This document shows positions 6,505 to 25,927 of a stretch of 64,000 bases of DNA, piece after piece. Origin of the DNA: Aristophania vespae. Its GTDB lineage: Bacteria; Pseudomonadota; Alphaproteobacteria; Acetobacterales; Acetobacteraceae. The DNA is taken from contig NZ_CP047652.1 of NCBI RefSeq assembly GCF_009906835.1, forward strand, positions 1,736,001 to 1,800,000, written 5' to 3'. How positions within the stretch are numbered: position 1 is the first letter of the stretch; the number at the start of each line of letters is the position of its first letter. The notes under the pieces were generated by a model that saw only the letters and a list, made by a program, of their open reading frames with translations, made no database searches and was not told where the DNA came from. Made by a program: the position numbers and the translations under genes.

Positions 6505-7660
6505 GACTGAACTCCAAAACCAGGAATTGATTTAATAACCGATTTCACATGGTGCAAGGAAATGCTTCTACCACATTCAAACATCCGGTCAGTGCCCTTA
6601 TGATTGGGGCAAAATTGTCGATCGGTTGTTTCCAGGGTTTTTGTCACATCATTGGCGCAGCCATTACAAACATGACGGTTAATGACACGATAGGGCGTAT
6701 AAAACTCATTATAGGGCTCGGTGTACCCACTAATCATTACCACTGGTGTTTCCACTGCCCAGGCAAGCCAAGAAAGCCCAGATGAAAGTCCTACAAAAAA
6801 ATCTGCATGTTTGAGCCAGCGTGCACGCTCGGTTAAAGGACGTTCTCCCGTTTCATCTTCAACGCCATAAGGAATTGGGCGCAACATATCACCACTTCCT
6901 TCAATACGGCTGCGATCAATACAAATAACGCGATAGCCATTTTCCTTTAGGAATTTGACAATTTCAGACCACCCCGACGGATTATGCCAATATTTGCTCA
7001 TGCCCGAAGCTTGCGACGCAATACAAACGTAACGCTCCTTAATGGGGCGTCCCCAGGATCTGCTACAACATTGGGGCGTCTTTCATGAGGGGATAGTCCT
7101 AAAATATAGGCCCCCATCACGGCTAAACCTACCTGACGATAATCATTGGGCTGAAAATTGCGATCATGATCATTGAAAAATACGAGAACTTTATATTGTG
7201 CATAATAAAAACGATCATCTTCGCTATCAGGCCCTATAAAGCGAATATGAGGATAAGCACCAGACAATAACGGGACTAGATTTTTATTGACTTTACATGT
7301 CAGACGACATCCATGACGCTCCTGAAAGGCAATGGCATGGCCAACCCAAGCCAGATGGTCTCCCAAGCCTCCAAGCTCCATAGAAATAAGCACTTCTTTG
7401 TCTTGTAATTCACAAAGATGGGTAAAGATAAGCTTGTCTTCTTTCCAAACTTTAAATTCAAAAGGCACGTAAAAACGTTTTGAACTTTGAACTAAGCTTG
7501 AAGACTCAATCTTATGTTGAAATAAAAGACTATCAGTCTGGCTATCATATAATTCTATGCGCCACTTGGCCCCATCAGGCACCCAAACACGACAACCATC
7601 CTGGAAATCATAGCGGATACCCTCTGGGCCTTCTTGCGTTAACACACCGTCATTATTCAT
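6501..7660 (-). pseudogene. Second SLS O-heptosyltransferase, split by one frameshift
   Basis: Two reading frames (6998-7660 and 6501-7001) make up one 386-residue O-heptosyltransferase closely related to its downstream neighbour. Shared features include 'LTQEGPEGIRYDF', 'ELGGLGDHLAWVGHA', 'FVGLSSGLSWLAWAVETPVV' and the same four-Cys motif (CNGC, FCPNHKG, FECGRSIS). The frame is lost near the GGGG run at 7044-7047 (plus strand). Adding one base there gives 'DAPIKERYVCIASQASGMSKYW', which aligns with the intact paralogue. It lacks the long N-terminal leader of the paralogue. If the break is real, only one heptosyltransferase is active, but a missed base in the run is at least as likely. It starts 68 bp after the FAAL gene. 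Confidence 0.85.
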
Positions 7661-7728: not shown

Positions 7729-9552
7729 CTATAAAGTTACTGAAGGCAGGTCGAGTATGTTCAATGCCTCGAGCTCTTCAGTCGAAAAATGCTGTTCCTC
7801 TATAATAGGTAGTGTTTTTTGTTTAAATGCCTCCTGAGTGGCCATTAAGCGAATTTTACCGCTCGGCGTACGGCTAATGCCGCCAGTGCGCACTAACACA
7901 ATTTTCAGTGCTTTTACCGGACAGATTTGTTTAATGGCACGTGCCATATTTTTTATGAGGGTAAATTTCTGGTCCGATATAGCTGACGATGATATTTCTC
8001 CCAAAACACAAAGCGCTTGGTCATCCCAGAATATAGCTAAACCACGAACAGTAAATTGAGGGCATTTTTGACGGATAACACTCGCTAAATCATCAGGATC
8101 AAAACGACGCCCCCCTATCAGAAGACGATTTTCCAATCGGCCGGTAACATAGAGATTTCCCTGATGAATAAAGCCAGTATCACGACTCCTAAAATAAAAG
8201 TCGCCCTTTAATGGAAGATTAAACCGTTCCTTATTTTCCTGCTCACGATTGAGATATCCAGGCGAAATACTGGGGCCACTCAACCATAATTCTCCGACCC
8301 GATCCTCACCTAAATCTTCGCCCGTTTCTGGGTCAACGACAGCAATTTTATGGCCTTCCAGCGCCATACCGCAATTTGCCAATACACGTTGATCTGATTC
8401 ATCCTTGGGTGGGATAACTAATCCTTTTGTAAGGCCTGCTCTTGAAAAAGCCTTAAAAGTAACGACAGAATCACCGCGTTTTTCCTGCACGGCAACATGC
8501 TGCCCCCCACTGGCAAAGCCAAGGGTTGTCTCAGCCATTCCATAGCCTGAATGAATAAGTTTCTTACTAACACCCACGCTAGAAAAACGATCTATAAACC
8601 CTTCGACCGTGTCACATTCAATCATCTCAGCACCGATAAGAGAACGCCACCAGCAGGAAAGATCAAGCGTTTTTAATGTGTCTTCTGAAACAGTCCTGGT
8701 ACATAAATCATAAGCAAAATTGGGGCTGGCTGTAAAAGACACACGATATCGGCTTATAATTTTTAGCCAACGCTCAGGCTTTTCAATAAAATGAAACGGA
8801 GACATGAGCATACAAGGCCCGCCGGCAGTCAGCCCGACCAGCAAACCTGTAATAAGCCCCATATCATGCGATAATGGGAGCCAGCTTACTCCCAGGGCTC
8901 CGTCATAAAAGCCAATTCTTCCTAGCATAAGAAAGAGATTATAGCCCAGATTGCTATGCGTGATCTGCACCCCGCGTGGCCGTCCCACTGAACCCGACGT
9001 ATATTGCACAAAGGCTACATCATGCATATCAGCAGCGTGATGACGATAAAGTGGCTCTGTTTTTTCAGCCCCCTCAATCGGAATCCATTTTACTGCCGGA
9101 GCGCCTTTAGGCATCGTACGTCTAAAATCGAGTAATGTTTGACGCAGACCAATCACAGCAACAGCCTGTGAATCTTCTAAAATATCAACAAGGCGTGTAA
9201 CACTTTCAGGCGCAGTAGGATAAATGCCTGAAATAGGAATCATATTGGCATAAACACAGCCAAAAAAACCAGCAATAGCCTCTAGGCCATTTTCAAAGCA
9301 TAGCACAATATGAGAACGCTCAGGCGCAAAACGTGCAATGAGGCCAGCCACACGACACGCCCATTCATGAGCTTGAGCCAGCGTCATATCCTGAGTGACA
9401 TTTTCGCCATCGCCAATATAGCTAAATTGTTTGAAATCGGGCGTTATAAGCGCCCGATAACTTAGCATTTCATCTAGCGTAGAACTTTTCCAGTCAAGGA
9501 GTAGACGACCATCTTTATGCCTATAAAGATGGTAATCCTCTATTTTGTTCAT
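7729..9552 (-). CDS. Fatty acyl-AMP ligase (FAAL, FadD32-like)
   Basis: A 607-residue ANL-superfamily enzyme of the FAAL type. FAALs activate free fatty acids as acyl-adenylates and load them onto an acyl carrier protein of a partner PKS instead of onto CoA. Visible motifs are the ATP loop 'YTSGSVGRPRGV', 'SWLPLSHDMGLITGLL', the A5-type 'SGYGMAETTLGFA' followed by the FAAL-like insertion region, 'LWLSGPSISPGYLNREQ', 'RDTGFIHQGNLYVTGR', and the C-terminal catalytic lysine in 'RTPSGKIRL'. Its ATG overlaps the stop of the PKS gene by 4 bp, and an AAAGGAGGAGGG Shine-Dalgarno sequence lies inside the PKS 3' end, so the two are translationally coupled. The natural role is to supply the starter acyl chain to that PKS. 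Chain length cannot be read from sequence. Confidence 0.92.
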   Translation of the reverse strand: MNKIEDYHLYRHKDGRLLLDWKSSTLDEMLSYRALITPDFKQFSYIGDGENVTQDMTLAQAHEWACRVAGLIARFAPERSHIVLCFENGLEAIAGFFGCVYANMIPISGIYPTAPESVTRLVDILEDSQAVAVIGLRQTLLDFRRTMPKGAPAVKWIPIEGAEKTEPLYRHHAADMHDVAFVQYTSGSVGRPRGVQITHSNLGYNLFLMLGRIGFYDGALGVSWLPLSHDMGLITGLLVGLTAGGPCMLMSPFHFIEKPERWLKIISRYRVSFTASPNFAYDLCTRTVSEDTLKTLDLSCWWRSLIGAEMIECDTVEGFIDRFSSVGVSKKLIHSGYGMAETTLGFASGGQHVAVQEKRGDSVVTFKAFSRAGLTKGLVIPPKDESDQRVLANCGMALEGHKIAVVDPETGEDLGEDRVGELWLSGPSISPGYLNREQENKERFNLPLKGDFYFRSRDTGFIHQGNLYVTGRLENRLLIGGRRFDPDDLASVIRQKCPQFTVRGLAIFWDDQALCVLGEISSSAISDQKFTLIKNMARAIKQICPVKALKIVLVRTGGISRTPSGKIRLMATQEAFKQKTLPIIEEQHFSTEELEALNILDLPSVTL

Positions 9553-12500
9553 CCCTCCTCCTTTGAAACATCATCAGCCCCAATAAGAGGAGTTTTACTT
9601 GCATTAAGCGTAGCCGCCTGCCGTAAAAGAGAGCGTGCCATTTCGATAATGGTTTCATTACGCGCTAACACAACAAGCGATACGTCAACACCAAATTCCG
9701 AACGAATGGCCATTTGCAGCTCAACCCCCGCAAGAGAGTCGATTCCAAGCTCTGAAAGTCTTGCCCCATCACCAATTGTCTCGGGGTCAATTTGTAATAC
9801 GGACCCTAACTGCCCTTTCAGACGAGCCAGTACGTAATCTAATCTTTCTGACTCTGGCAGAGAGAAAAGAATATTTAATGTATCGGAAAGGCCACCCTTA
9901 CGGCTTTCCTGCCGAACGGGAGCAAAACGAGCAACCCCCTCGAGCCATGTTAACGCCCCGAAAGCTCGTGACCAGTCAATATCAACAATGGAAAGGCTTG
10001 GCTGATCAACACGCAATAAGGCAGGTAACAAGCTGAGAGCTTTTTCTGCTTTAATTGTTTTGACACCCGCAACGTCAAATATACGATTTGCGGCCTCATT
10101 ACGCACTAACATCCCAACATCACCAATAGCGCCCCAACCAACGGCAATGGCTGTCTCGCCTTTTTGGCGACGTTTTTCGGCAAGGGCATTTAACCAGCCA
10201 TTGGCAGCAATATAAGAACTTTGACCAGGATTACCGATTTCAGTTGTAAAAGAAGAATAAAGAACGAAGTAATCCAGCTCTAAGCCTTGCGTTGCCTCGT
10301 CTAGCGCCTCTGCTCCAAGAACTTTAGGTGCCATAACGCGTTCAACACTCTCTGGTGTCAGGTTGGCGACAATCATGTCATCAACAACACCTGCCGCATG
10401 AAACACACCACAAAGCGGTTTTTCTGACGCATTAACGGATTTAACAAGCTTTTTAACGGCTTTTTTATCCGTCACATCCACTAGGTGAATATGAACCTCA
10501 ACACCAAAAGCCTTAGCGGTTTCTTTCAATGTTTCTAGAGCCTCTTGCATTTCAGGCTGGCTTGGCAAGCGACGCCCCAAGAGATGTAATGCACCGGCTC
10601 CCTGACGCAAAAGTGCTTCGGCTGTTTTAAGTCCAAAGCCGCCCATGCCCCCTGTAATGAGATAAGAACCATCAGCCTTAATCTTAGGCGGTTCTTTTTT
10701 CATTGGGCGTGCCTGAACATTGCTCAGGTCCTCAAATGAGAGGATTACTTTCCCAATATGCTTCGATGATGCCAGGAAACGGAACGCTTCCACAACCTCA
10801 GAAGCAGGAAAGACCGTATGGGGCAAGAAGCTGATTTTATTCGCCCTCGCACAATCGATAATTTCAGTAAGAATACTTCTTCCCACCCGCTCATCAGGCA
10901 TGAGGCGGTCCATATCAAATGAGAAGAAAGAAAGATTTTCGTTAAAAGGCGTGAGGTCAAGGCGACGATGTTCAACAATATCGCGCTTACCAATTTCTAT
11001 GAAACGACCCAAAGGTGCCACCAAATGCAGACTTTGTGTCAAAGCCTCGCCCGGGAGGGAATTGAGTACAACATCAACCCCCCGTCCATTTGTCGCCTTT
11101 CGAATACCATCAACAAATTCTAACGTGCGAGAATCCCATACGCCCGCGCAACCTTGTTTTCTTAGATAGTCTCTTTTTTCTTCGCTACCGGCAGTGGCAT
11201 AAATTGTTGCCCCTTTCATAAGCGCTATTTGAATAGCGGCCTGGCCAACGCCACCAGCACCCGCATGAATAAGAACGCTCTCACCTTTTTCAAGATGGGC
11301 CAATTTTAACAGCACATACCAGGCTGTAACGTAAACCAGTGGGGCTCCCACAATAGCAGGTTCTGAGTAAGCCAGAATTTCTTCAGTAAGGGGAATGGTG
11401 CAAAGATCAAGCCCATCCACATTACAGACCCGATAAAGGCTGAAGCTCTCAGGATAGATAAAGAGTAATTTCTCTCCGACTTTACGTTTTGTAACGCCTT
11501 CGCCTACAGCCACAACCTCTACAATAGATTCCATACCCAGATGGTCACCATTATAGGTTCCCTCCACCACTGATTCTGGCAGCAGGGACATTGCTTTTAA
11601 AATATCTTTAAAATTAAGACCGGCATGGGTAGTGCGAAAAACAACTTCACCTGGGCCAGGCTTAGGCACTTCATAAGCCTGCCAGCTCAAAGATTCCAGC
11701 GTTCCTGATGAGCCCGGCTTTAAGCGGATCCCTAAATGGCCATCCTGGCTCCCTTCCAATGTTTCAAAAGGCACAGGTGCAGGTTCGGGATTTAAATTAG
11801 GTTTAATGAGGCGCTCGACGTAACGCTTCTCATCACGGAGGGCTACAGTATCTTCTTCTATAGCTTCTGTAACAAACTCTGCCGCTAGATCTTCTAGCAT
11901 GTCCTCGGGCAAAATCTGCGGAAGATCGATTGATCTTATCGCAAGATCAATGCGCTCACTCTGAACACCCCGGAAAAAGCCTGTTAGGGCACGTTGTGCA
12001 GGTGACACTAACTCATCATACCCCGGGACATGATACGCATTGTGCGTCACAATAATTAATGGCAAACGTTTATGGCGTGTGCGGGTTGGTATTTTATTGA
12101 CGAAGGCTAATGCTTTTTGTACGGCCTCAATCGCAGACTGCTCGCCATTTTTATCTGGATCATGCAGATAAATAAGTGAGCGCAATTCCAAAATTTTCCT
12201 ATCATTCTCCAGTAAAGTGACAAGGTCATCTTGTTCGGTCGAAGGATAAGAAAGAACGTCCGCGCCACATTCAGTCAGGAGTGTTTCCAGGCGTGAAGCC
12301 AGATCACCAGCTTTACCAATCAGAGCAATTTTAAGCGGTTCACTTAACAGCATTTGCCGCTCAGTCATTACCCAGGAAGGTGCTAGTAAAAGACGCCCTA
12401 CGCGGCTTTCTTCATCATGCCCGGCCCGCGCTAAACGACGGCATTTCAAACCCAGAATCTCTAGAACAACCTCCCCCTCTTTATCATAAAGAGTGAGGTC

Positions 12501-15500
12501 AGCTTCAACACGTTCAGTAGAGCGATATTTTGGTTTAACAACAACAGTGACTGCCTCACATTTCTGCCCCATATAGCTCACACGGCGCATCTCTGTAGGG
12601 ACAAATAAGCTGTCATTATGACCTTCCAGCGGGAAGGCCCCAATCATCGCATGCATTGCACCATCTAAAAGTGCAGGATGAATGAAATAATTTTCTAGCT
12701 CGGATTTTTCAGCCTCTTTGAGCGAAACCTCACCGATAGAAATATTTTCGCCACGATAAAGAGCTGTTAGTGTCTGGAAAGAAGGACCGTAACCCATGCC
12801 ATGGGCAGCCAGTTCTTCATAAATTTTAGGCCCTTCAAAGCGAGTCAGCCCCTGCTTGACTACCTCAAGATCAATTTGATCTTTTTTCCAAGGGGCCGCT
12901 TGCAGCAGCGTAACCTGGCCATGGACCTGCCAATCTCCATTATAGGCTATAGTCTCGCTTGTAAAACTCAGCACACGTGATTCTGAGTCAAAACACCAGG
13001 CCACAACAGGCACAGACCCTTCTTGTAAAACAAGCGGAGCCGTAAGGCGCAGATCTTCTAAAATAGCTGGTGCTTTTGACTCAATTTGTTCGTGAGCTGC
13101 CAAAGCTGCCTCAATATAGGCAGCCGCAGGAAAGAGGGTAATATTATCAATACGATGATCAACCAGCCAGGGCATAATCACAGCCGAAATATTAGCCTGC
13201 CAGGAACGGCCAGAGTTTAACGAAGCTGTTCCCAAAACGGGATGAATGGCAAGATCCAAACGATCACGACGGGATGCCTCCATTTCCTGCCATAATTCAT
13301 TTTCGACACACCAGACATATGGCGGTAAAGCAACACGTGAAGGCCGCATGATCCAGCGCCAATCCGGCTCTGCACCACCTAAAGTAAGATTTATTAATGC
13401 CGCGGTGAGTGTTTCCTGATCATCTTCTTTCCGACGCAAACTCGGACAAACCGCTATGGTATGGCGCGTTTCCTCAGCACTTATTTTGATAGAACTTGCC
13501 AGAACAGGATGAGCAGCAATTTCTAAGAAGACTGGAAATTCATCTTTTAAAAGCTGGCGTGTAACCTCTAAAAACTGCACAGGCTCTCTGGCATTCTGAT
13601 ACCAGTATGCAGCATCATGAGGGGCATTTTCCTCCCATTTTTGGCCCGTTACTGTAGAGTAAAGTGGGCAATGAGGTTCTTGGCTTTCAAGGTCAGCTAA
13701 AGAGGAAATCAAATCGGTTTTGATTTCTTCCATAAAGGGGCTGTGATAAGGAAGCTCTACGCGTAAAAAACGCGTGAAAATGCCTTTTTCTTCCCAATCC
13801 TTGGCAAGGGATTCTAGAGACTCTTTCTCGCCAGCTAATGTGCATGATTCAGGAGCATTAATGGCGGCAATAGCGACTTTATGACCAAAAGGCTCAATCG
13901 CTTCTTTTAAGGACTCGGCACTAAGACCCACAGCCAACATCGTGCCTTTGCCCTCAAGGCGGGCTTGCAAACGACTGCGATGATAAATGACCTTAACAGC
14001 ATTTTTTAGGTCAAGAGCACCGCTGACATAGGCGGCAGCAACTTCACCCACGCTGTGGCCTGTAACGGCCCCTGGCTCTATACCTTTTTGTTTAAAAAAC
14101 TCTGCTAAGCAAATTTGTAATAAGAAGATGGCTGGCTGAGAAATAGCCGTTTCCTGAATACGAGACTCTTTTTCAGAACGGGCTAGTTCTTTTAGAATAG
14201 ACCAACCTGAAATTTCCTGAAATTCCTTATCGCATTCTTGCGCTAGACGACGAACAGAGCCCGTAGCCTTTTTTAGAAACTGGCGCCCCATGCCCCACCA
14301 TTGTGGGCCCATGCCAGAAAAAACAAAAACTGGTTTTGTTTTACGATCTGTAACAGCATCTCCTACAAAAAGGGCAGGATGTTTTTCGCCTTTTTCAAAA
14401 GCCTCAAATGCTGCCAGGGCTTCTTCTGCCTCATTTCCCCCTGCACTCGGTAAAATTACAGCGCGATGACGAAAACGGGTACGATAGGCCGCAGCAGAAA
14501 AGCAAAGCTCTTCCCAGCTTGTAAAAGCCTCGCTTTTTATGAGTTCAGCATAATTATGTGCTGTACCCTGCAATGATTTTTCAGAAAATGCAGAGAGCAC
14601 CAAAGGAATACGCTTGAAAAAACCTGTTGCCTTTACATTTTTAACACGGAATTTCTGCGCAACTTTCCTTTGTGCATTTTCCTTTTCAGCCAAAGTAGGG
14701 CGGCGTAACAGCGCAACGGCATTCGTCCCACCATAGCCAAAAGAATTCACAAGAGCATAAAGCTCTTCACTCTCCGGTAAAAATGCGGGTTTATCTTGTG
14801 GAATGGCCAGACGATATTCATCAAAAGGTATGGCTGGATTTAGTTCTGTTAAATTCGCTTGAGGTGGCACTTGCCTATGCTCAAGACAAAGCAACGCCTT
14901 AAGGACACCTAATGCGCCTGCGACAGCCTCTGTATGGCCAAGATTAGCCTTAATAGTCCCAACAACAACATCTTCACCTTTGGCCTTATGTTGCCCAACA
15001 GCACGCGCTATAGCCTTGGCCTCGATTGGGTCGCCTACAGGTGTGCCTGTACCATGAGCTTCAACATAAGCAATTTGGGAAGGCTCCACTCCTGCCTTGC
15101 GCATAACCTCTTTCATGAGGTTTTCTTGTGCATCGGCATCAGGTAGCGTGATGACGGCTGTGCGGCCATCCTGATTTACACCCGTGCCACTAATCACGGC
15201 ACGAATATCATCACCATCACGCATAGCATCTTCTATGCGCTTTAAGGCAAAAAGAACGCAGCCTTCTCCGCGCCCATATCCATCAGCAGACGCATCAAAA
15301 CTTTTTGAGCGGCCGTCCTTCGCTAAGAAATGCCCTTTAGACATGAGCATGGCCGTTTGTGGGGAGAGCATAAAATTAACGCCACCAGCAATAGCGACGT
15401 CACAATCCCCTAGCAAAAGCCCATTACAGGCCTGAGCTAGTGCCACGAGTGAAGAAGAGCAGGCTGTATCAATAGCCATTGCTGGCCCTTGAAAACCATA

Positions 15501-16004
15501 TACATGGGCCAAGCGTGCTGCCAGCATGGTCATAGATGCCGCAGTAGCTGCAAATTGATCACGGATTTGAGCCCGCATAAAGGGGCTACCGCATAAAATT
15601 AGATGATCCTGAGTAAAGCCGCCAATAAAAACGCCTGTACGAGACCCCTGTAGGTCAGCCGGTAAGAGAGCTGCATTTTCTAATAACCGCCAGCTAACAC
15701 CCAATAAGAGGCGCTGCTGAAAGTCCATTTGCATTCCCTCTCTTGGGGAAATACCAAAGAAGAGAGGCTCAAAATCATAAGAATCATGATTTAAGAAATT
15801 TCCCCAGCGCATACTTGTTTTGCCGGGCGTCTGGTCTATAGGATCGTAAAAATGTCCTATACTCCAGCGATCAGGCGGGACTTCGGTTGTCGCGTCGCGA
15901 CGGTCGAGCAAAAATTGCCAAAGGTCATTTGTGTTACCTAAATGTGAAGGCAATTCGAATCCTACGCCAATGATAGCAATTTCACCCGATCGCTTCATAC
16001 TCAT
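9549..16004 (-). CDS. Type I polyketide synthase, one fully reducing module (KS-AT-DH-ER-KR-ACP)
   Basis: A 2151-residue single-module PKS. Domains in order: KS (~6-435) with Cys182 in DTACSSS, His317 in EAHGTGT and His357 in GHTEAV; AT (~560-860) with Ser651 in GHSVGEV and a substrate motif YHSP; DH (~920-1200) with His950 and Asp1114; ER (~1430-1760) with the NADPH motif GAGGVGQAA; KR (~1775-1965) with GGMGGFG, Ser/Tyr catalytic residues in 'YSSFTTEIGNPGQSSYIAAN'; ACP (~2060-2130) with phosphopantetheine Ser2090 in LGIDSLAG. The DH motif is HxxxNxxxxP, with Asn where Gly is usual. There is no thioesterase or reductase release domain. The layout fits iterative formation of a saturated or branched acyl chain, as in mycobacterial lipid PKSs, primed by the adjoining FAAL. 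Extender choice is not clear. Start: two in-frame ATGs (16004, 15998) after AAAGGAAAA. Confidence 0.93.
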   Translation of the reverse strand: MSMKRSGEIAIIGVGFELPSHLGNTNDLWQFLLDRRDATTEVPPDRWSIGHFYDPIDQTPGKTSMRWGNFLNHDSYDFEPLFFGISPREGMQMDFQQRLLLGVSWRLLENAALLPADLQGSRTGVFIGGFTQDHLILCGSPFMRAQIRDQFAATAASMTMLAARLAHVYGFQGPAMAIDTACSSSLVALAQACNGLLLGDCDVAIAGGVNFMLSPQTAMLMSKGHFLAKDGRSKSFDASADGYGRGEGCVLFALKRIEDAMRDGDDIRAVISGTGVNQDGRTAVITLPDADAQENLMKEVMRKAGVEPSQIAYVEAHGTGTPVGDPIEAKAIARAVGQHKAKGEDVVVGTIKANLGHTEAVAGALGVLKALLCLEHRQVPPQANLTELNPAIPFDEYRLAIPQDKPAFLPESEELYALVNSFGYGGTNAVALLRRPTLAEKENAQRKVAQKFRVKNVKATGFFKRIPLVLSAFSEKSLQGTAHNYAELIKSEAFTSWEELCFSAAAYRTRFRHRAVILPSAGGNEAEEALAAFEAFEKGEKHPALFVGDAVTDRKTKPVFVFSGMGPQWWGMGRQFLKKATGSVRRLAQECDKEFQEISGWSILKELARSEKESRIQETAISQPAIFLLQICLAEFFKQKGIEPGAVTGHSVGEVAAAYVSGALDLKNAVKVIYHRSRLQARLEGKGTMLAVGLSAESLKEAIEPFGHKVAIAAINAPESCTLAGEKESLESLAKDWEEKGIFTRFLRVELPYHSPFMEEIKTDLISSLADLESQEPHCPLYSTVTGQKWEENAPHDAAYWYQNAREPVQFLEVTRQLLKDEFPVFLEIAAHPVLASSIKISAEETRHTIAVCPSLRRKEDDQETLTAALINLTLGGAEPDWRWIMRPSRVALPPYVWCVENELWQEMEASRRDRLDLAIHPVLGTASLNSGRSWQANISAVIMPWLVDHRIDNITLFPAAAYIEAALAAHEQIESKAPAILEDLRLTAPLVLQEGSVPVVAWCFDSESRVLSFTSETIAYNGDWQVHGQVTLLQAAPWKKDQIDLEVVKQGLTRFEGPKIYEELAAHGMGYGPSFQTLTALYRGENISIGEVSLKEAEKSELENYFIHPALLDGAMHAMIGAFPLEGHNDSLFVPTEMRRVSYMGQKCEAVTVVVKPKYRSTERVEADLTLYDKEGEVVLEILGLKCRRLARAGHDEESRVGRLLLAPSWVMTERQMLLSEPLKIALIGKAGDLASRLETLLTECGADVLSYPSTEQDDLVTLLENDRKILELRSLIYLHDPDKNGEQSAIEAVQKALAFVNKIPTRTRHKRLPLIIVTHNAYHVPGYDELVSPAQRALTGFFRGVQSERIDLAIRSIDLPQILPEDMLEDLAAEFVTEAIEEDTVALRDEKRYVERLIKPNLNPEPAPVPFETLEGSQDGHLGIRLKPGSSGTLESLSWQAYEVPKPGPGEVVFRTTHAGLNFKDILKAMSLLPESVVEGTYNGDHLGMESIVEVVAVGEGVTKRKVGEKLLFIYPESFSLYRVCNVDGLDLCTIPLTEEILAYSEPAIVGAPLVYVTAWYVLLKLAHLEKGESVLIHAGAGGVGQAAIQIALMKGATIYATAGSEEKRDYLRKQGCAGVWDSRTLEFVDGIRKATNGRGVDVVLNSLPGEALTQSLHLVAPLGRFIEIGKRDIVEHRRLDLTPFNENLSFFSFDMDRLMPDERVGRSILTEIIDCARANKISFLPHTVFPASEVVEAFRFLASSKHIGKVILSFEDLSNVQARPMKKEPPKIKADGSYLITGGMGGFGLKTAEALLRQGAGALHLLGRRLPSQPEMQEALETLKETAKAFGVEVHIHLVDVTDKKAVKKLVKSVNASEKPLCGVFHAAGVVDDMIVANLTPESVERVMAPKVLGAEALDEATQGLELDYFVLYSSFTTEIGNPGQSSYIAANGWLNALAEKRRQKGETAIAVGWGAIGDVGMLVRNEAANRIFDVAGVKTIKAEKALSLLPALLRVDQPSLSIVDIDWSRAFGALTWLEGVARFAPVRQESRKGGLSDTLNILFSLPESERLDYVLARLKGQLGSVLQIDPETIGDGARLSELGIDSLAGVELQMAIRSEFGVDVSLVVLARNETIIEMARSLLRQAATLNASKTPLIGADDVSKEEG

Positions 16005-16030: not shown

Positions 16031-17530
16031 TTAAGAGTCTGATTCTTCTTTAGCTTTTAGAAAAAGTGATACTGAGGCTCTCAACTTTTCACGATCTACA
16101 AAACCTATTGTTTTATATGGAATTGTTTCAACCCAAATAACAGTTACTGGCGGCAAAGCAGGATAGCGTTTTCGCAGTGCTTGAGAAAGCTCATTTCCCA
16201 CCAGATCTTCATGCGTAATAAGTGCGCAATATAAAGATTGTTCGCCTTTCTCATTACGATAAATAAAAGACGCTGCGTCCGAAATAACGGGATCAGCTTT
16301 CAGAATGGAATCTATGACTGACAAGTCAAACTTGGCCCCTCCCAGTGCAACGAGGTCATCAACACGTCCGGTTAGATGAAGCTCATAATTCTGAGAGAGA
16401 AACCCCCTATCACCAGGATAAAACCACCCCTCACGAAAACGTGTCGCGCTAAATTCTGGCTCATTATAATAAGAGCGCGCCATGCCTGAAGCACGAAGAC
16501 GAATAATCCCGACATCTCCATATGGAAGAGGCCTGTCATTTTCATCTACAATTTCAACACTGGCCCAGGGGAGAATATTACCAACACTCAGCTCATTTTT
16601 ACGCAGTGCAGCCCTTTTTTCTGAAACAAGGCCGCATTCGTCTGTGCCATAGGCGATAGTAACGTGTGATGTTAGTTTCTTAAGTGTTTTTTCCAATAAA
16701 TTATTTGATAAAGCCGCCCCTACGATTGTTAAGTGAATCTGGGAAAGAGGCGCCATTGAAGGGGGTAATATTTTTATAAGATGTTCTAAGTGGGATGGAG
16801 TCATCACGACAAAAAGTGGCGTGCCGCGCACAACCTCTGAGCCAACATTTTGACTGTCAGTTTCTCTTACCGTCGTAACACTCGCCAAAGCCGCAGCAAT
16901 CATCAAAAAGGCACTGTGAGAAGCAGCACCAATTGTGCAAAGCAGGTCAGGTTTTTCTATATTCTGACGTAGGTTGGATAAAACTGTCGTACTATCCTGG
17001 TAGATTAAGCGTAAGATAGCACTCTCAATTTCTGAAAAACTAAAAGCAATAGCGTGGAATTCTTTATCTGTTCCCGCTGCTATTGAAACACGACATAAAT
17101 CATTTGGATCTACCGAAACCGGAGGGAAATAAGACTCCGGACCGTCATCCTCAACCCCGGCAAGCACCTTACGAAACCATTTATCGTCAAGTGAAAGGAT
17201 TTTTTCTTTTGAGGAAAGATCACCACCACTTGAGATAATGAGATCGGGATTTAAAAGAGCAAGAGCTTGTTCAGGAACCTCTGAATCAGGCAAAGATGCA
17301 CTCGCCAAACCTAGACGGGACAGGGCCAAAAGCAACAGCCAATGCCGCCATAAGTCAGGACATTGCACAGCAATAAACGGTGCAGACAGTCCTCTTAAAT
17401 TCTGCAATGCTCGCGCAACACGACTCACTGAAGCTTCTAGGCGTGCAAAACTACATTGCCGCGCGAGTCCTCCGAACGCCAGCGCATCTTTATAGCGCTG
17501 CGCATTACGGAGGACAAAACGATCAAACAT
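16031..17530 (-). CDS. AMP-binding (ANL) superfamily protein, catalytic motifs degenerate
   Basis: A 499-residue relative of acyl-CoA synthetases and adenylation domains. Recognisable parts are 'IAYGTDECGLVSEKRAAL' in the A5 position, 'VGNILPWASVEIVDENDRPLP', 'REGWFYPGDRGFLSQNYELHLTGRVDDLV', and a small C-terminal domain. Two essential motifs are lost. The Ser/Thr/Gly-rich ATP loop reads SIAAGTDKEFHAI, and the catalytic lysine motif (normally GKxxR) reads G-Phe477-V-D-R. Normal adenylation is therefore doubtful; the protein may be a binding or scaffold partner, or may use an adenylate made elsewhere (for example by the FAAL). It lies 26 bp before the PKS gene and 62 bp after the SLS-Hint gene in the same direction, so it very likely belongs to the same pathway. 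Confidence 0.8.
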   Translation of the reverse strand: MFDRFVLRNAQRYKDALAFGGLARQCSFARLEASVSRVARALQNLRGLSAPFIAVQCPDLWRHWLLLLALSRLGLASASLPDSEVPEQALALLNPDLIISSGGDLSSKEKILSLDDKWFRKVLAGVEDDGPESYFPPVSVDPNDLCRVSIAAGTDKEFHAIAFSFSEIESAILRLIYQDSTTVLSNLRQNIEKPDLLCTIGAASHSAFLMIAAALASVTTVRETDSQNVGSEVVRGTPLFVVMTPSHLEHLIKILPPSMAPLSQIHLTIVGAALSNNLLEKTLKKLTSHVTIAYGTDECGLVSEKRAALRKNELSVGNILPWASVEIVDENDRPLPYGDVGIIRLRASGMARSYYNEPEFSATRFREGWFYPGDRGFLSQNYELHLTGRVDDLVALGGAKFDLSVIDSILKADPVISDAASFIYRNEKGEQSLYCALITHEDLVGNELSQALRKRYPALPPVTVIWVETIPYKTIGFVDREKLRASVSLFLKAKEESDS

Positions 17531-17592: not shown

Positions 17593-20500
17593 CTAGGCGC
17601 TTAGGGCAGGAGAATCAGAGACAGAAGATATAGGATATGGGCCGCCTGCCTCAAGCTGAATAGAGAGCAGCATCCTCTCTCCTTCTGGGACGTAACATTC
17701 AGGAAGAGGTAAGAAAGCGTCACCCATTGTCCAGCGATGAGGTCCAGCTTCAACCACACTCCAGCCAGGCAGATTATCACGCTCTAAATGAGCCGTAACA
17801 TCTATTTCGCGCCCACCAACCCACAACTCAACCTTACCGACAAGAACGCCAAGATCGCGGCGGTCATCAATGAAGGGTCCAATTGTTGCAGATGGTCTAA
17901 AGCTATTGGAAACTAGCCTTACACCACGCGCATTAGCCGGCAGATAGAAAATGGCGCGACCATTACTCTCACGACTTTTCTCAATAACTGTTCCATTATC
18001 CAAGATCAGACGCAATTGTGAATCTTCAGTGTAGTTTTGTTTCTGGGCTTGAAGATCTGCCTCTTTGTACCCCAGACTGACAGCACGCTCGCGGAAGTTA
18101 TTATAAAGTGGCTCAACAAAATCACGACTTACCTCTAGAGGTGCCGCTGCATCATTATGCCATGTCAGTTCTCTTAAGCGAACGATACGTCCCATATCCT
18201 CATTTTCGGATTTAATGGAACGACGCTCACCCGTATTGAGGTAGCTTTCAGTCAGGGTATTATTTGCCCAGATAACGGAATGAAGCTCTGTTTCAACATG
18301 GTAATAATCATAGCTCTCCTGGCTATAATCATACCGGATTGAAGCGCCATTAACCAACATACGTGCAGGAACAAAGCGCCCTTCAAGATAGAAACAATGT
18401 TCAGGTGTGACAAACAAGTCTTGAGATGGCACACCAGGTGCAAAGGCATCTTTACAAACCTGAACGGCCCAGCCAGCTAACTCATCTGGCATGTTTTTGT
18501 TAACAACGCTATGGCGTTTCAAGACCGAAGTGACTTCACGCACTGACTTTTGTCCATTTTCATAGACAAAAATGCGATCACCTTTTTTGACATTTTCAAC
18601 TGCTGTCTCACCTTTTTCAAGGCGCAACAAGGTTCCAGGTAAGAAACATTTATCATAGATGATAATGGTATTACCATATCCGTCATCTAATAATTGGAAG
18701 CCATTATCAGGTGAGGATTGACCCTCTGAATCAGGGTAATTACCCATAAGATCCAGCGTCCAGGTCTGGCCATTTTCCGTAACGACAAGCTTACCATTCT
18801 GCACGAAAGTCGTGCCTTCGGAATCGTATTTAAATCCTAGAATTCTCAGACGGGCATTATAACCCATTGAGGTCTGGGTCATGACCGCGCCGCTTTCAAT
18901 GGTGAGAATCCCACCTAGAGAGCCAGACTGCACCGCACCCACGATTGTTGTGGAGGTCATGCTACCGCCAGAAGCAGTCCTGCTAGCGTCATCTTTACTT
19001 GTAATGACAGCTCCAACAGATGTTCCGCCAGAATAAACTGTTAGGCTATGGCCATCCGTAACGGTTGGACCACCAACCCAGCCACCACTTGCAACCGTGA
19101 TGCTAATAGCTGAAGCACCTGAAAGGAACAGACCCGACCCACCGGCAAGAATCTGCACATCTCCCACAGTTGCGCCGGCTTGAACCGTGCCATAACCGCC
19201 AGAAATAACAAGCTGATCAACAACACCGCCAACAACAGCACTACCAGCCGTTGTAACAGTTGCACTGGTGAGAGTGCCACCAGAAATAACAGTAGCTGTA
19301 CCCCCTGATGCCACTAGCGCACTATCAAGTGTGCCGCTTTCATCAATAGTGACAGCACCACCAGAACCCGATGCAAATGCGATGGTGGCGCTGCCGACAT
19401 GACCACCAGAGGCAATCTCTACCTGACCACCAGAAACCAGAGCACTACCGACTTCACCACCATTATCAACAAACATTGAGCCAGGGACAAGCATTGCCCC
19501 GCCAACATTTCTATTGGTTGTGATTGTAGCGGTGTCGATAGAACCACCACTTTCGACAATAACCTCACCGCGGCGCGTGGCAACAGCATTATTGATATGA
19601 GCGCCACCATGCACGTAGAGTCTACCACCAGCAGAGGCTACAACATCGTCAAGCCCCGCTCCGCTCATAATGTGCAAGTCACCATGATGATATTTTGGAT
19701 CATTGATGACAGTTGTGTAATCGCCCCTGACGAAAGCCTGGTTGCCCTGGATTTGAGCGCCAGAGAAGAGATAGGCCGTACCACCACTTATAAAGAGGTC
19801 ATTAATATAACTGTCAGCACCTGCGCTGATAACACCGCCTTTTTGCACAGAAACATGCTCAATAGCAGCACTAGATAGAATTATTGTACCTGCTGCATTT
19901 GGAACAGCGTTGGTCGTATCATCGCCATAGGCCGCAGCACTAAAGACAGAAGCCCCACTGCCGATATCAACCACCCCTGCCCTACCAGCAGAGACGACGC
20001 CATTTTGAATAACCGCCCCGCCCAGGAAGGATAAATGACCCTGGTTATTAGGGTCACCAGTCACGGCGATTGCGCCAGCCGTGGCGCCGGAGTTCATAAC
20101 CGCCTCACCACCGCTAACGGTCAATTTATCAACAAAGGCACCTGATAATATAGAACCAAGACCACCACTATTGACTGTGATGTCGGAGCCTATGGCTCCG
20201 TTCTGCATTACTAATTCACCGCCATTGATCTGCAACCCGCCACCGGAGCCGCCATTTTCAATGACAATTTTACCATTATCTACGTTAGTGCCAGACCCCA
20301 GGTAACCGCCAGACTGAACATCGACATAGCCGCTATTTACCGTTTGTAGAGCTACACCACCGCTAGAGACATATACCTCACCGCCTGACTGCACCGTAGT
20401 TTGTATCGCCGAACCACCATCAGAAATCAGCTCAACACCACCAGAGGTAATGACAGAACTTGTGGCATAACCATCTGAGCCAACAATTTCGGTGCCGCCA

Positions 20501-21433
20501 CTTAAAACGGTATTACCGACACTATAGCCTTTTGAATAATTACCAGCAGATGTTGAGTGATCAGATGTAAGAACCGATTCGTAAGTACCACCGGCAACCA
20601 GAACCGTGCCACCAGAACCGGCAGTAATACCCACGCCCGTCGCACCAGAAACGAGAATCTGTCCCCTCCTAATGCGGTAGAACGCGACGCCAGACCACCA
20701 TTGACCAATTGAGTAGCGCCGTGGCCGCTAAATATATTCCCAAAAGTTTGCCCATTTGACTGAACGAACTGGAGCCCGCGATAATCGCCCCCTACAACAG
20801 TACCACCTTTACCAACGGCCACCATGGAGCCTTCTTCAAAGGTGCCCCTGAGATAAAGCCACCACTACCCTGAACGTTATAGCCCTTAATTTTAAAGCCT
20901 GGACCACCACCGCCTGCCAGACCATAACCGCCAGAAAGAACATGAGGGTCAAAGAAAGTACCGCCAGAATTTAGCCCACCCATGGCCCCGCCACCATTAT
21001 TGGTAATAATGGTCGCAGCAAGCGCGCCAGAGGAACCAATTACAGCGCCACTGACCACCCCGCCCTGAGCCGCAGCAATAGAGGCGTTAGAGCCAGCATA
21101 ACCGCTATAAATGGTAGACTTGTTAACCGAAGCAATCGTCGCACCGTCAAGGGCTGTCGCTCCAGAAATAAAACCACCATCAGAGGAGATGATAACAGAA
21201 GGTTCATCTGTACCTCCTGTTCCGGTCCCCGTGGCGATAACGTTAAAGTAGGTGCCTTTCCCAACTTTAGCAAAAGTCGCGCCCGACGTGACACTGATAC
21301 TCTTGCGCCCCTGATCATCCTTATAGCCGGCATCTACACCAGGTTTGAGCTTGCTGATTATAGAGCTAATAATTTCTGGAATGTCTGGAATTATATTGCT
21401 AGCGCTTATTGAAATATCTAATTCGTCTGGCAT
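17593..21433 (-). pseudogene. SLS-repeat surface protein with C-terminal Hint domain, split by two frameshifts
   Basis: Three overlapping frames (20792-21433, 20502-20825, 17593-20634) join into a 1280-residue protein when one base is added at each of two CCCC runs (20845-20848 and 20663-20666 on the plus strand). Residues ~60-900 are AIDA-type strand-loop-strand passenger repeats built on 'V-x-SGG' and 'x-SGGxxx' units, known targets of O-heptosyltransferases. A Hint_2-type domain begins near residue 928 (CFLPGTLLRL; Cys codon 18646-18648), with 'FVTPEHCFYL' and a later 'HSVIWANNTLTESYL'. The last ~190 residues form a domain with 'VRLVSNSFRPS', 'DDRRDLGVLV' and 'RWTMGDAFLPLP' often seen after Hint in acetic acid bacteria. 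No Sec signal peptide and no autotransporter barrel are visible, so the export route is unknown. The rich GGC/GGT repeat DNA makes base-calling errors likely. Confidence 0.85.
18880..21300 (-). repeat. Degenerate SLS (AIDA-like) coding repeats
   Basis: A run of roughly 20-residue protein repeats, each containing a Gly-Gly turn preceded by Ser or Asn (SGG, AGG, NGG). At the DNA level the repeats are too divergent for exact tandem copies, but plus-strand 'ccaccagaa' and 'ccgcca' words recur throughout. The repeats supply the Ser-rich acceptor surface expected for O-heptosylation. Confidence 0.75.
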
Positions 21434-21613: not shown

Positions 21614-22570
21614 TTATTTACTTAATAAAGGTAGATAAACTTTAGACAGGCACTTCTTTATTTTGTCTTTATTATAAAAAGCCACGGTTTTGCGTCCTTC
21701 AGAAATTTGCCTTTTATAGAAAGAGGTCTGATTCACAAATCCATCTAAAGCCTGAGCCATCGAGTCAGCAAAAGACTCTAATGCCTCTGTAAGATGCCAG
21801 GCACCATTTTGAGAACGTGCATAGTCAGAGACTCCACCACCCTGCAAACCTATAAAAGCGCAATTCAAAGCCATTGCTCTAAGGCCCATCAAACCTGTTG
21901 TATCTAAATGTGACAGAGAGACACATACAACAGATCTACCCAGCAACTCGGTAATTTCTGATTGTTTTTTACCCTCAACATCATGCCAGGCAATATTAGC
22001 GTAATGAGGATATTTATTTTTTATAATCCCCAATATGACAAACCAAAGTCCAGAACTATCATGGGTTAATTCTCTTTCAAGAATACACATCGCCATAAGT
22101 TTTTTTGGCTGAGGAACGTAAAGTTCTGTATCAATAAATGGTGTAATGAGCGCTACGTCCTCTAATCCCATTACTGATTTCAAAAAATTCATAGCCCATT
22201 GATTAGGGACTATAACTTTTAATATATCCCATTTTTCCAATAACGCTTTATTGATTTCGTGATGAACCATTAAATAAGGGTCATGGCAATATATTAGTTT
22301 CTTGCAAGGCCAATTTGCTTCAAGTGATGGTTTTAACTTCTCTAAAGCATGTATGGGAAATATGACAACATCTGACGAATTTAAAGAAACCTCTACAGTG
22401 TGTACGGACTCCGTTACATAGGACTCTAGTAAAGACGGCATCCCTGCCGGTTGAAAAACGCGCGCATCAATGCCTATTTCTCTCAAAAGTTTGGCTTGCT
22501 GATAAATTAATTTAGTTGCTTCAGATGAGTCTGTCTTTGGTACACAATTTAAGAAAATAACGCGCGCCAT
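21614..22570 (-). CDS. Glycosyltransferase-like protein, diverged GT4-type copy
   Basis: A 318-residue paralogue of the next upstream gene (22633-23613): both begin with 'RV(I/V)FLN', share 'LLxExGI', 'NWPCxKxI(Y/F)C', 'VPxxWA', and the 'V(V)xPxxDTxLxxPxPKKL' block. In the usual GT4 E-x7-E region this copy reads 'LDTTGLMGLRAMALNC', with Asp/Thr and Arg in place of the two Glu residues. It may be catalytically weak, or may act as a partner of its neighbour. It lies 62 bp downstream of that neighbour and 180 bp ahead of the SLS-Hint gene. The base composition is noticeably AT-rich compared with the PKS genes. A role in glycan addition to the SLS protein or to a lipid is inferred from context only. 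Confidence 0.6.
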   Translation of the reverse strand: MARVIFLNCVPKTDSSEATKLIYQQAKLLREIGIDARVFQPAGMPSLLESYVTESVHTVEVSLNSSDVVIFPIHALEKLKPSLEANWPCKKLIYCHDPYLMVHHEINKALLEKWDILKVIVPNQWAMNFLKSVMGLEDVALITPFIDTELYVPQPKKLMAMCILERELTHDSSGLWFVILGIIKNKYPHYANIAWHDVEGKKQSEITELLGRSVVCVSLSHLDTTGLMGLRAMALNCAFIGLQGGGVSDYARSQNGAWHLTEALESFADSMAQALDGFVNQTSFYKRQISEGRKTVAFYNKDKIKKCLSKVYLPLLSK

Positions 22571-22632
22571 AATATTCTTTCTTTTAAATTATTGAATAGT
22601 TATTATTGAGCGATGATTACTTCACAAAAGAA

Positions 22633-23613
22633 TCACAGAGTTACCAGCGGGCGTTTTCTATTAAGCAAATCCTGATAGCTTTCTTTTAGGGCACGCCTGG
22701 CTAAAGTCTCATTATATCTTCGAGCTGTACTAATGGCGCTGTCCTGAATCTTTTTAAAGACCTCTAACTGGCGAGCCTGTCCTTCAATTGCAAGAGCCAG
22801 AGAGCCGACCAAACCTTCTATATCTTCTGGAGAATGCCAAAACCCATTTTGAGGTGTTGCAAAATCAAGCCCACCTTCTCCGTGGAACCCTACGGTCACG
22901 CAGCCCGAAGCCATGGCCTCAAGTGCCGTAAGTCCCAGAGATTCTGAGCGCCCTAAAGCAAGGCAAATGGCTGATTCGCCCATTAGTTCTGCAACCTGAT
23001 TTTCCGTATAGCTACTAAGATTAACCCAGGGGACTTCGGCTAAATGAGGATATTTCAATTTCAAGCAGTTTTTTATCAACGTCTCGTAAGACGAAATATA
23101 TTTATGGTCATTCCATTTCCAGGAAGCCGAAACAATCTGTAATTTTTTGGGTCGTGGGTAAAATAGTGCCGTATCCACAACGGCTGGCACGACTTTGACA
23201 TCATCAAACCCTATAACAGACTGAATAGACTGCTCAGCCCATTTACTGGGAACAATAATGCTTTTGATACCCCAGCTTTTAAGGTCGCTCGCTGTGACAT
23301 TATAGGAATAGAAATAAAACGGGTTTTGGCAAAATATAATTTTAGTGCACGGCCAATTTAGAGACACTGTCTCTTTAAACCATCCATTTAGTGTTTCTGG
23401 ATATACGGCAACGTCATGGGCATGGAGTGTTACGTCTTTACAGGCCAGGGCACGCTGTACAGGATCTTTTAAAAGGTCAGGTGGGCCAGAGGGCTGTAAA
23501 ACGACAGTTTCTATCCCCTCTTCGTTAAGCAGGGCCGCATGGCGATAAGTCGTTTTAATACCACCCGTAAAAATGTCTTTTGCAAAGGCGTTCAAAAAAA
23601 CAACGCGACCCAT
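22633..23613 (-). CDS. Glycosyltransferase, GT4-like
   Basis: A protein of 326 residues with a GT-B style N-terminal domain ('MGRVVFLNAFAKDIFTGGIK', 'LLNEEGIETVVLQPSG') and a C-terminal nucleotide-sugar half. The latter carries 'ALGRSESLGLTALEAMASGC', which has the E-x7-E motif of GT4 retaining glycosyltransferases. I choose the ATG at 23613, preceded by GAGATAAG, over the GTG two codons upstream. The stop of the DsbD-like gene lies 36 bp upstream, so the two may be co-transcribed. Acceptor and donor are unknown. Position at the head of the SLS-Hint/PKS block suggests work on the same product. Confidence 0.75.
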   Translation of the reverse strand: MGRVVFLNAFAKDIFTGGIKTTYRHAALLNEEGIETVVLQPSGPPDLLKDPVQRALACKDVTLHAHDVAVYPETLNGWFKETVSLNWPCTKIIFCQNPFYFYSYNVTASDLKSWGIKSIIVPSKWAEQSIQSVIGFDDVKVVPAVVDTALFYPRPKKLQIVSASWKWNDHKYISSYETLIKNCLKLKYPHLAEVPWVNLSSYTENQVAELMGESAICLALGRSESLGLTALEAMASGCVTVGFHGEGGLDFATPQNGFWHSPEDIEGLVGSLALAIEGQARQLEVFKKIQDSAISTARRYNETLARRALKESYQDLLNRKRPLVTL

Positions 23614-23649
23614 AAACACTTATCTCTATTTTGCTCCCCCTACGCGTTG

Positions 23650-25830: not shown

Positions 25831-25875
25831 CCCTTAAAATAACTATTTTGCCCTAAAACGCCTTTGAACCCAGAA

Positions 25876-25905
25876 ACATCATTGTTTCATGTGAAACAAT
25901 GATGT
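25876..25905. promoter_or_regulatory. parS-like palindrome (candidate ParB binding site)
   Basis: Positions 25883-25898 read TGTTTCATGTGAAACA, which differs from the widely conserved chromosomal parS sequence TGTTTCACGTGAAACA at one central base. The symmetry extends outward, giving 13-bp perfect arms (ACATCATTGTTTC / GAAACAATGATGT) around a 4-nt centre. It lies in a 97-bp non-coding gap between the propeller gene and dsbD. No T run follows on either strand, so a rho-independent terminator is less likely. No parA or parB gene is in this window. Confidence 0.6.
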
Positions 25906-25927
25906 CCTCAATAATCAAAACCAAACT

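Follow-up and report, generated by a model that had tools for sequence, protein, structure and literature searches.

We examined a 64,000-nt stretch of Aristophania vespae contig NZ_CP047652.1 (assembly GCF_009906835.1; hereafter the window), in which an open reading frame (ORF) on the minus strand at 17593..20634 encodes SLS repeats followed by a Hint_2 domain and a conserved domain without a name. We consider it reasonably probable that this ORF belongs to a self-cleaving, repeat-rich SLS surface glycoprotein, in which the Hint_2 domain and its companion domain form a C-terminal self-processing module. Judged from sequence, the module is real and probably active, the surface protein probably is heptosylated, and a neighbouring polyketide synthase (PKS) probably acts in the same pathway. 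The features of the gene are listed here, with residues numbered as in P0001, the 391-residue piece that carries the Hint.

17593..20634, minus strand: SLS-repeat protein with Hint_2 and C-terminal domains, 1013 residues counted from GTG 20634
18769..20634, minus strand: SLS passenger repeats (TIGR04415; the Pfam AIDA stalk model fell below its cut-off)
20792..21433, minus strand: N-terminal portion of this SLS protein, read in a different frame, from three-frame translation
18229..18648, minus strand: Hint_2 domain (PF13403), P0001 residues 41-180, ORF residues 663-802
18646..18648, minus strand: Cys41 of P0001 (ORF Cys663), predicted nucleophile of an N-S acyl shift, from alignment conservation
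18397..18408, minus strand: TPEH block (Thr121, His124), a T-x-x-H motif, from sequence and alignment
18298..18300, minus strand: His157, invariant, at the likely block-F Asp position by motif comparison
18280..18282, minus strand: His163, invariant, the likely block-F His by motif comparison
18247..18249, minus strand: Glu174, invariant
17629..18162, minus strand: unnamed C-terminal domain, P0001 residues 203-380, from alignment and model

The ORF scored 99.9 bits with PF13403 (cut-off 28.4, E 2.2e-28) at residues 663-801, and the start Cys codon, the CFLPGT sequence and the TPEH block are all as described in an original prediction, made from the letters of the window. The passenger-type repeat flank described there was recognised as SLS repeats by TIGR04415 (42.2 bits, cut-off 30). 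The Hint does lie toward the C-terminal side, as had been claimed, but not at the very end, given the conserved domain of ~180 residues that follows it. Hint_2 domains also had been called common in this family and mostly without a known role; matches with E <= 0.001 were present in 74 of the 147 genomes searched, that of A. vespae included, and a literature search turned up no paper assigning Hint_2 a role in Acetobacteraceae. The 2.02 Mb A. vespae genome has a single Hint_2 match. The closest relative found was 'Acetobacteraceae bacterium ESL0709', and the match to the window Hint protein in genome G001 shows 69% identity.

Five polar Hint residues are conserved and lost together

Two alignments were analysed, one of 68 Hint regions including that of the window (37 close relatives and 31 others), and a second of 31 sequences that also was used for structure prediction. 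Across the first alignment, every one of the 68 regions has His157, His163 and Glu174, and 67 have Cys41 and likewise His124, the exception in each case being a gap in a fragment. At position 121, all 37 close relatives carry Thr, against Ser in 30 of the remaining 31 regions and one gap; residue 175 is Ser or Thr in 68/68. The window protein shares with Hint_2 at large a profile score far over the cut-off, the Cys, the [TS]xxH motif, the two His and Glu, and an N-terminal passenger; its subgroup is set apart by T-x-E-H (37/37 close relatives), Thr160 (37/37) and His-Ser (36/37), as well as by the conserved C-terminal domain.

In the second alignment, C41, H124, H157, H163 and E174 are all present in 29 of the 31 sequences and all replaced in the remaining two. 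Eight Hint columns never vary among the 29 (C41, V57, P114, H124, N140, H157, H163 and E174); the two exceptions read G, Q, P, P and A at the five polar positions and keep V57, P114 and N140. Overall, these two have lost 7 of the 16 Hint positions that are near-invariant (Y155 and G141 besides the five), and of 25 such positions in the C-terminal domain they keep 21. Both are Hint paralogues on IMG/VR contigs (L102:2100-3329, with L101 the same as L102, and L104:2096-3352), have at most ~90 residues before the Hint, and lie upstream of, and on the same strand as, a Hint gene that has all five residues. Joint loss is what would be expected if the five residues do chemistry on the passenger, and its occurrence in passenger-poor paralogues supports the existence of an active N-terminal cleavage site. 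The predicted scissile bond is Lys-Cys, directly before Cys41.

The modelled fold resembles bacterial intein-like domains

Structural prediction of the Hint, proposed with the original prediction, was carried out with AlphaFold2. A first model from four sequences was poor (predicted local distance difference test score, pLDDT, 45.5) and was not used, and the model from 31 sequences has a mean pLDDT of 84.6 and a predicted template modelling score (pTM) of 0.80. Averaged over blocks of ten residues, pLDDT is 89-98 in the Hint and 82-97 in the C-terminal domain, and it is below 50 at residues 1-36 before the Cys, in the linker at 183-196 and in the tail at 382-391. A Hint fold was modelled at residues 38-180, and this region matched bacterial intein-like (BIL) domains, inteins and Hedgehog upon structural alignment, where just residues 38-178 were spanned by at least one fifth of the rows and the C-terminal domain was barely tested structurally.

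The best structural match is BIL domain 2lwy (VIA-align Z 13.4, root-mean-square deviation (rmsd) 2.1 over 119 residues). BIL domains mainly yield cleaved products, according to PMC7664689, and are defined by a Hint fold that cleaves without an obligatory +1 nucleophile. The window domain has the fold, as modelled; it differs from them in having Glu174-Ser175 in place of His-Asn and in carrying an extra C-terminal domain. Several intein structural alignments end at Glu174-Ser175. The last aligned intein residue, which we take to be the terminal Asn, pairs with Ser175, presumably putting Glu174 at the place of the penultimate His. The His-Asn pair that ends an intein ahead of its +1 nucleophile is not found at this place; because Glu174-Ser175 would replace it, neither splicing nor C-terminal cleavage is expected.

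Hedgehog (1at0) has the same Hint fold (Z 10.4, rmsd 2.6 over 117 residues) and shares with the window protein CF at the start, TPxH and a domain C-terminal to the Hint. It is here that the proposal of a self-cleaving lipid attachment begins: as happens in Hedgehog, a hydroxylated compound made by the nearby PKS would attack the thioester of the Hint, and the SLS fragment would end in a lipid ester at its C-terminus. We regard this outcome as very unlikely, and the active site supplies part of the reason. The Hedgehog general base Asp46 (fly D303) pairs with Lys84 in a weak hhalign alignment (probability 19-26%, in register GDR to NGQ), and Asp occupies this column in 0 of the 37 close relatives (Q12, H9, K4, R4, S4 and four single others) and in one of the 31 other regions, eight of which have His. 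Glu78, picked by eye as a Hedgehog-type acid, was dropped once the alignment set Asp46 at Lys84. The region of the Hedgehog block-F Cys400 (SCYA) reads DYYHVET in the window, and the hhalign alignment ends short of it. No cholesterol-type nucleophile is known for the window protein, and its C-terminal domain, although occupying the place of the Hedgehog sterol region, is predicted to be mostly beta. On the other side stands the His found at the Asp46 place in 9/37 close relatives: since His at that place kept Hedgehog active, as stated in PMC9163320, a lipid-type reaction is conceivable.

An unnamed domain is a common companion of the Hint

The ~180-residue domain after the Hint, with the signature RP...GPxxDDRR..G....GW...RWTxG, has no match in Pfam or NCBIfam, none among PDB sequences, and no significant match to nine exporter-locus proteins. 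In the model it comprises a long helix at 215-231, short helices and nine strands; the helix-loop-helix that forms the Hedgehog sterol recognition region (described in PMC7242414) is not seen in this model, which counts against a lipid ester. An alignment-based search found the domain in 17 of 30 genomes, 16 of which also carry Hint_2. Compared per genome rather than site by site, and with fragments possibly counted twice (two pieces each, perhaps one domain, in G009 and G010), C-terminal and Hint_2 domains match in number in 11 of these 16 genomes (G000, G001, G002, G003, G006, G008, G009, G010, G012, G013 and G014). By these sequence searches, the domain is a common companion of the Hint, and other Hint_2 proteins occur without it. 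For G009, to take one genome, 22 Hint_2 domains were reported. At L030, L022 and L015, some Hint_2 domains depart from the usual C-terminal location and are followed by ~500 or more residues, the frame running to the locus end.

PKS, heptosyltransferase and Hint genes are linked across genera

The original prediction had noted a lipid-type PKS beside the gene, and the annotation agrees: a mycocerosic-acid-synthase-like PKS and two AMP-binding enzymes adjoin the ORF, together with heptosyltransferases and glycosyltransferases (GT).

16031..17530, minus strand: diverged AMP-binding (acyl-ligase-like) enzyme (PF00501, E 1.5e-19)
9549..16004, minus strand: type I PKS, KS-AT-DH-ER-KR-ACP, mycocerosic-acid-synthase-like, from domain scan and co-linearity with mycocerosic acid synthase over residues 7-2129 (E 8.9e-290)
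7729..9552, minus strand: fatty-acyl-AMP-ligase (FAAL)-type enzyme (PF00501, E 5.1e-53; NCBIfam FAAL models below cut-offs)
5098..6504, minus strand: TibC/Aah-type SLS O-heptosyltransferase (TIGR04414, 574.6 bits, cut-off 200)
6501..7660, minus strand: second TibC-type heptosyltransferase in two overlapping frames, 6998..7660 and 6501..7001 (TIGR04414)
21614..23619, minus strand: two GT4-like glycosyltransferases, upstream, the first matched weakly (PF00534/PF13692)

Co-location of PKS, hint-domain and heptosyltransferase genes is already published. As presented in section 16 of PMC8776678, beta-group type I PKSs of Acetobacteraceae are flanked by acyl ligases, an O-heptosyltransferase is consistently present, and hint-domain proteins occur in Asaia; the gene set is the same as here and is treated in that section as a metabolite cluster, with no role given to the hint-domain proteins. 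Our literature search turned up no mechanism for such a cluster. New here are the nesting of the genes across genomes, the argument from a sole target, the active-site set and the C-terminal domain.

Fifty genomes were picked by hand, 45 with and 5 without matches to a query of the Hint plus C-terminal domain. A PKS of this kind, 36-100% identical across most of its length, was found in 21, and TIGR04414 heptosyltransferases over the cut-off in 33, including all 21 with the PKS; this nesting of PKS within TibC within Hint partly is a product of the genome choice, and the counts ignore relatedness and carry no significance test. PKS and TibC genes lie within ~8.3 kb of each other in 21/21 PKS-bearing genomes. 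None of the five genomes without a query match has a heptosyltransferase; a PKS of 34-38% identity is present in one of these five, G045. Among the 50 are 24 genomes that do carry relatives of the query (E 1e-58 or better) but no PKS of this type, two of which, G043 and G047, have a PKS of only 32-37% partial identity; the heptosyltransferase is missing as well from 12 of these 24, and the nine that are represented in the alignment all have the active-site residues. The lipid PKS as a general partner of the Hint was rejected, given these PKS-lacking relatives.

A Hint gene lies near the PKS in 13 of the 21 genomes (G000, G001, G379, G274, G248, G009, G315, G205, G085, G284, G399, G030 and G041), mostly directly upstream of the AMP-binding ligase gene, and an SLS-Hint-type gene is linked with PKS, ligases and heptosyltransferases in 6 of 8 PKS-bearing genera. 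The Hint gene is apart from the PKS in the eight genomes of genera g33 and g158, as judged from match positions in G299, G373, G390 and G033; the PKS neighbourhoods of G175, G214, G257 and G329 have the window gene order minus the Hint gene. In G214, G175 and G329, the Hint orthologue lies beside a protein that by eye resembles leucyl-tRNA synthetase.

An SLS-repeat search of 15 genomes gave matches (E <= 0.001) in nine, over the curated cut-off in four. The sole match is the Hint ORF in eight of the nine (G000, G001, G175, G214, G299, G329, G390 and G373), and G041 gave 21 matches spread over three frames, of which two are Hint ORFs and the third is not classified. No SLS match was obtained for the PKS- and TibC-bearing G257 and G033 or for the TibC-negative G158, G070, G014 and G061, though short repeats and diverged copies may escape the model. 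Because it is the only SLS match in most genomes with matches, the Hint protein would be the obvious, and often the only recognised, target of the heptosyltransferase. The four TibC-negative genomes still carry relatives of the Hint and C-terminal domain, indicating that the module also goes with passengers lacking recognised SLS repeats.

Outside this gene set, DsbD-like, beta-propeller, creatininase-like and flavin halogenase-like genes adjoin the cluster in the window (23650-29778, minus strand), and DsbD-like and beta-propeller genes also adjoin the PKS cluster in L082, L083, L085 and L086.

Possible fates of the Hint thioester and of the PKS product

The linkage in six genera (13/21 genomes) and the Hint ORF as sole SLS match in eight of nine genomes are the genomic points in favour of a lipid ester, along with the residue before the Cys, which is Lys in 16 of the 23 rows that come from genomes with the PKS and in 0 of 9 from genomes lacking it (a count that left out five rows, all Lys, from genomes not searched for the PKS). 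Common descent might account for the Lys flank, which is missing from the PKS-adjacent copies in G379 and G274. The 24 Hint-bearing genomes without this PKS also speak against the ester, as does the closeness of the PKS to TibC in every PKS-bearing genome but to the Hint in only 13. The chemistry weighs in the same direction: a PKS with acyl-AMP ligases predicts an acyl, electrophilic donor, and PMC8776678 reports no thioesterase for PKSs of this family and no aminotransferase in the beta group. Because the PKS product and the Hint thioester are both acyl donors, they would not react with each other save through a free hydroxyl or amine on the polyketide. A full counterpart of Hedgehog lipidation, with a hydroxylated polyketide capturing the thioester, the C-terminal domain recognising the lipid, and Glu174 or one of two extra His acting as general base, appears slightly less probable still. 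Of the self-cleaving lipid attachment originally proposed, the analysis supports a complete Hint active site, a self-contained N-terminal cleavage module and, across several genera, a genuine linkage of the PKS to an SLS-Hint/heptosyltransferase system; it does not support the transfer of lipid by the Hint thioester. Lipid transfer is weakened and now is a possible but less likely use of the Hint; it is not refuted, because a hydroxylated polyketide would circumvent the acyl-donor objection.

Two other outcomes deserve more weight, although we consider each unlikely. The thioester might be captured by an amine, a lysine or an amino sugar of another surface molecule, thereby tethering or cross-linking the SLS protein. 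The adhesin-like SLS passenger suits such a role, and the lack of a terminal Asn and of the Hedgehog base, next to five conserved polar residues, leaves room for another nucleophile; neither an acceptor nor a partner gene was identified. The alternative that seems to us a shade more plausible, if still improbable, is that the PKS acyl chain goes onto the heptosylated SLS protein itself or onto its glycan, in a reaction apart from that of the Hint, or else onto a separate coat glycolipid. The constant proximity of PKS and TibC, even where the Hint gene lies elsewhere, and the glycosyltransferases in the cluster fit this arrangement, but no stand-alone acyltransferase was found among the scanned cluster genes.

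A conserved exporter accompanies the Hint

The window protein shares with AIDA-I/TibA-type autotransporters the SLS repeats (TIGR04415) and TibC/Aah heptosyltransferases (TIGR04414), and the presence of both at one locus is characteristic of heptosylated SLS/AIDA proteins. It differs in that the Hint and C-terminal domain replace the translocator, with no C-terminal beta-barrel translocator found in Pfam and NCBIfam scans of both ORF pieces, and no signal peptide is evident by eye, with no predictor run, in the SLS protein or its orthologues. Relatives of an ATP-binding cassette (ABC) exporter protein encoded in the A. vespae genome are present at 54-100% identity in 20/20 genomes with a match to the Hint plus C-terminal domain query vs 6/20 without one (one of the latter 20, G025, has a weak Hint_2 match); two more of the genomes without have relatives at 40-41% identity. 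HlyD matches over the cut-off were found in 27/27 genomes with the query match vs 3/5 without. In the six genomes inspected (G000, G001, G205, G351, G030 and G306), the genes that come after the ABC/HlyD pair resemble one another in size and order, and in G000 they encode a Sel1-repeat protein, a GT2 protein, a ~300-residue ChW-matching protein and a GT4 protein. Together, the sequence data suggest type I export of the SLS-Hint protein. The exporter locus (L144:6861-17657, similar in L145 and L148-L151) may export and modify Hint proteins.

Proposed order of events and points that weigh against it

From these observations we infer the following pathway. TibC-type enzymes would heptosylate the SLS repeats in the cytosol, after which the protein would leave the cell, most likely via the conserved ABC/HlyD (type I-like) exporter. 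Cys41, aided by Thr121 and His124, would attack the carbonyl of the preceding Lys in an N-S acyl shift, and His157, His163 and Glu174 would stabilise or resolve the thioester, freeing the SLS part just before the Cys. The thioester then would be taken by water or a small or surface nucleophile, an amine being likelier than a lipid alcohol. The C-terminal domain may partner the Hint in recognition, export or retention. The PKS and acyl ligases would belong to the same glycoprotein pathway and, rather than the Hint nucleophile, would more likely supply an acyl group that ends up on the glycan, on the protein or on a separate glycolipid.

Several points count against this pathway. The inactive paralogues share identical replacements and so are counted as one loss; the joint loss probably was a single event rather than independent ones. 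In 20 of the 31 more distant Hint_2 regions, Pro precedes the Cys. A Pro before the Cys is an awkward flank for an acyl shift, and members of the Hint_2 family may not all cleave. A Hint that serves as a non-cleaving structural or binding module would gain from these Pro flanks; we nevertheless hold it to be quite unlikely for the window protein, in view of the strict conservation and joint loss of the five polar residues and of the Lys, not Pro, before its Cys. Cleavage itself is predicted from sequence and a structural model. As for the companion domain, five of the 16 genomes carrying both have fewer C-terminal domains than Hints (G004, G005, G007, G011 and G015), and G016 has a weak C-terminal-domain match and no Hint_2. 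The support for export is co-occurrence, confounded by ancestry.

The reading frames of the gene also count against the pathway, at least for the window strain. Upstream of the ORF, two further frames (21433 to ~20640) hold the N-terminal part of the SLS-Hint protein, and by its sequence GTG 20634 is not the true start, which would be further upstream. With two frame breaks, both near short G runs by eye, it is possible that the window strain does not make the protein. The corresponding passenger-Hint-C-terminal-domain frames of Asaia siamensis and the ESL0709 relative (L081 and L080) are open and unbroken. Indels from sequencing are a likely cause of the breaks, because a heptosyltransferase, a GT4 gene and another long gene likewise are split; gene decay is a possible alternative. 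The heptosyltransferase at 6501-7660 occupies two frames here, and most relatives seen carry two intact copies beside the PKS. The two exporter-locus genes (L144:1314-4864 and L144:16432-17657), which by comparison with G001 are a GT4 gene and another long gene, occupy two frames each in the window genome vs one in L145.

Implications

Hint_2 domains are abundant in Acetobacteraceae, with no role assigned to them in the papers that our searches turned up, and the C-TxxH-H-H-E set, together with its joint natural loss, provides a concrete active-site hypothesis for them. The unnamed C-terminal domain is a target for structure work. PKSs of this kind have been discussed as an antifungal candidate in Bombella (PMC8262860). 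The linkage of the PKS to surface-glycoprotein genes (TibC in 21/21 genomes) points to the cell surface as a place where its product might be found and might have a role.

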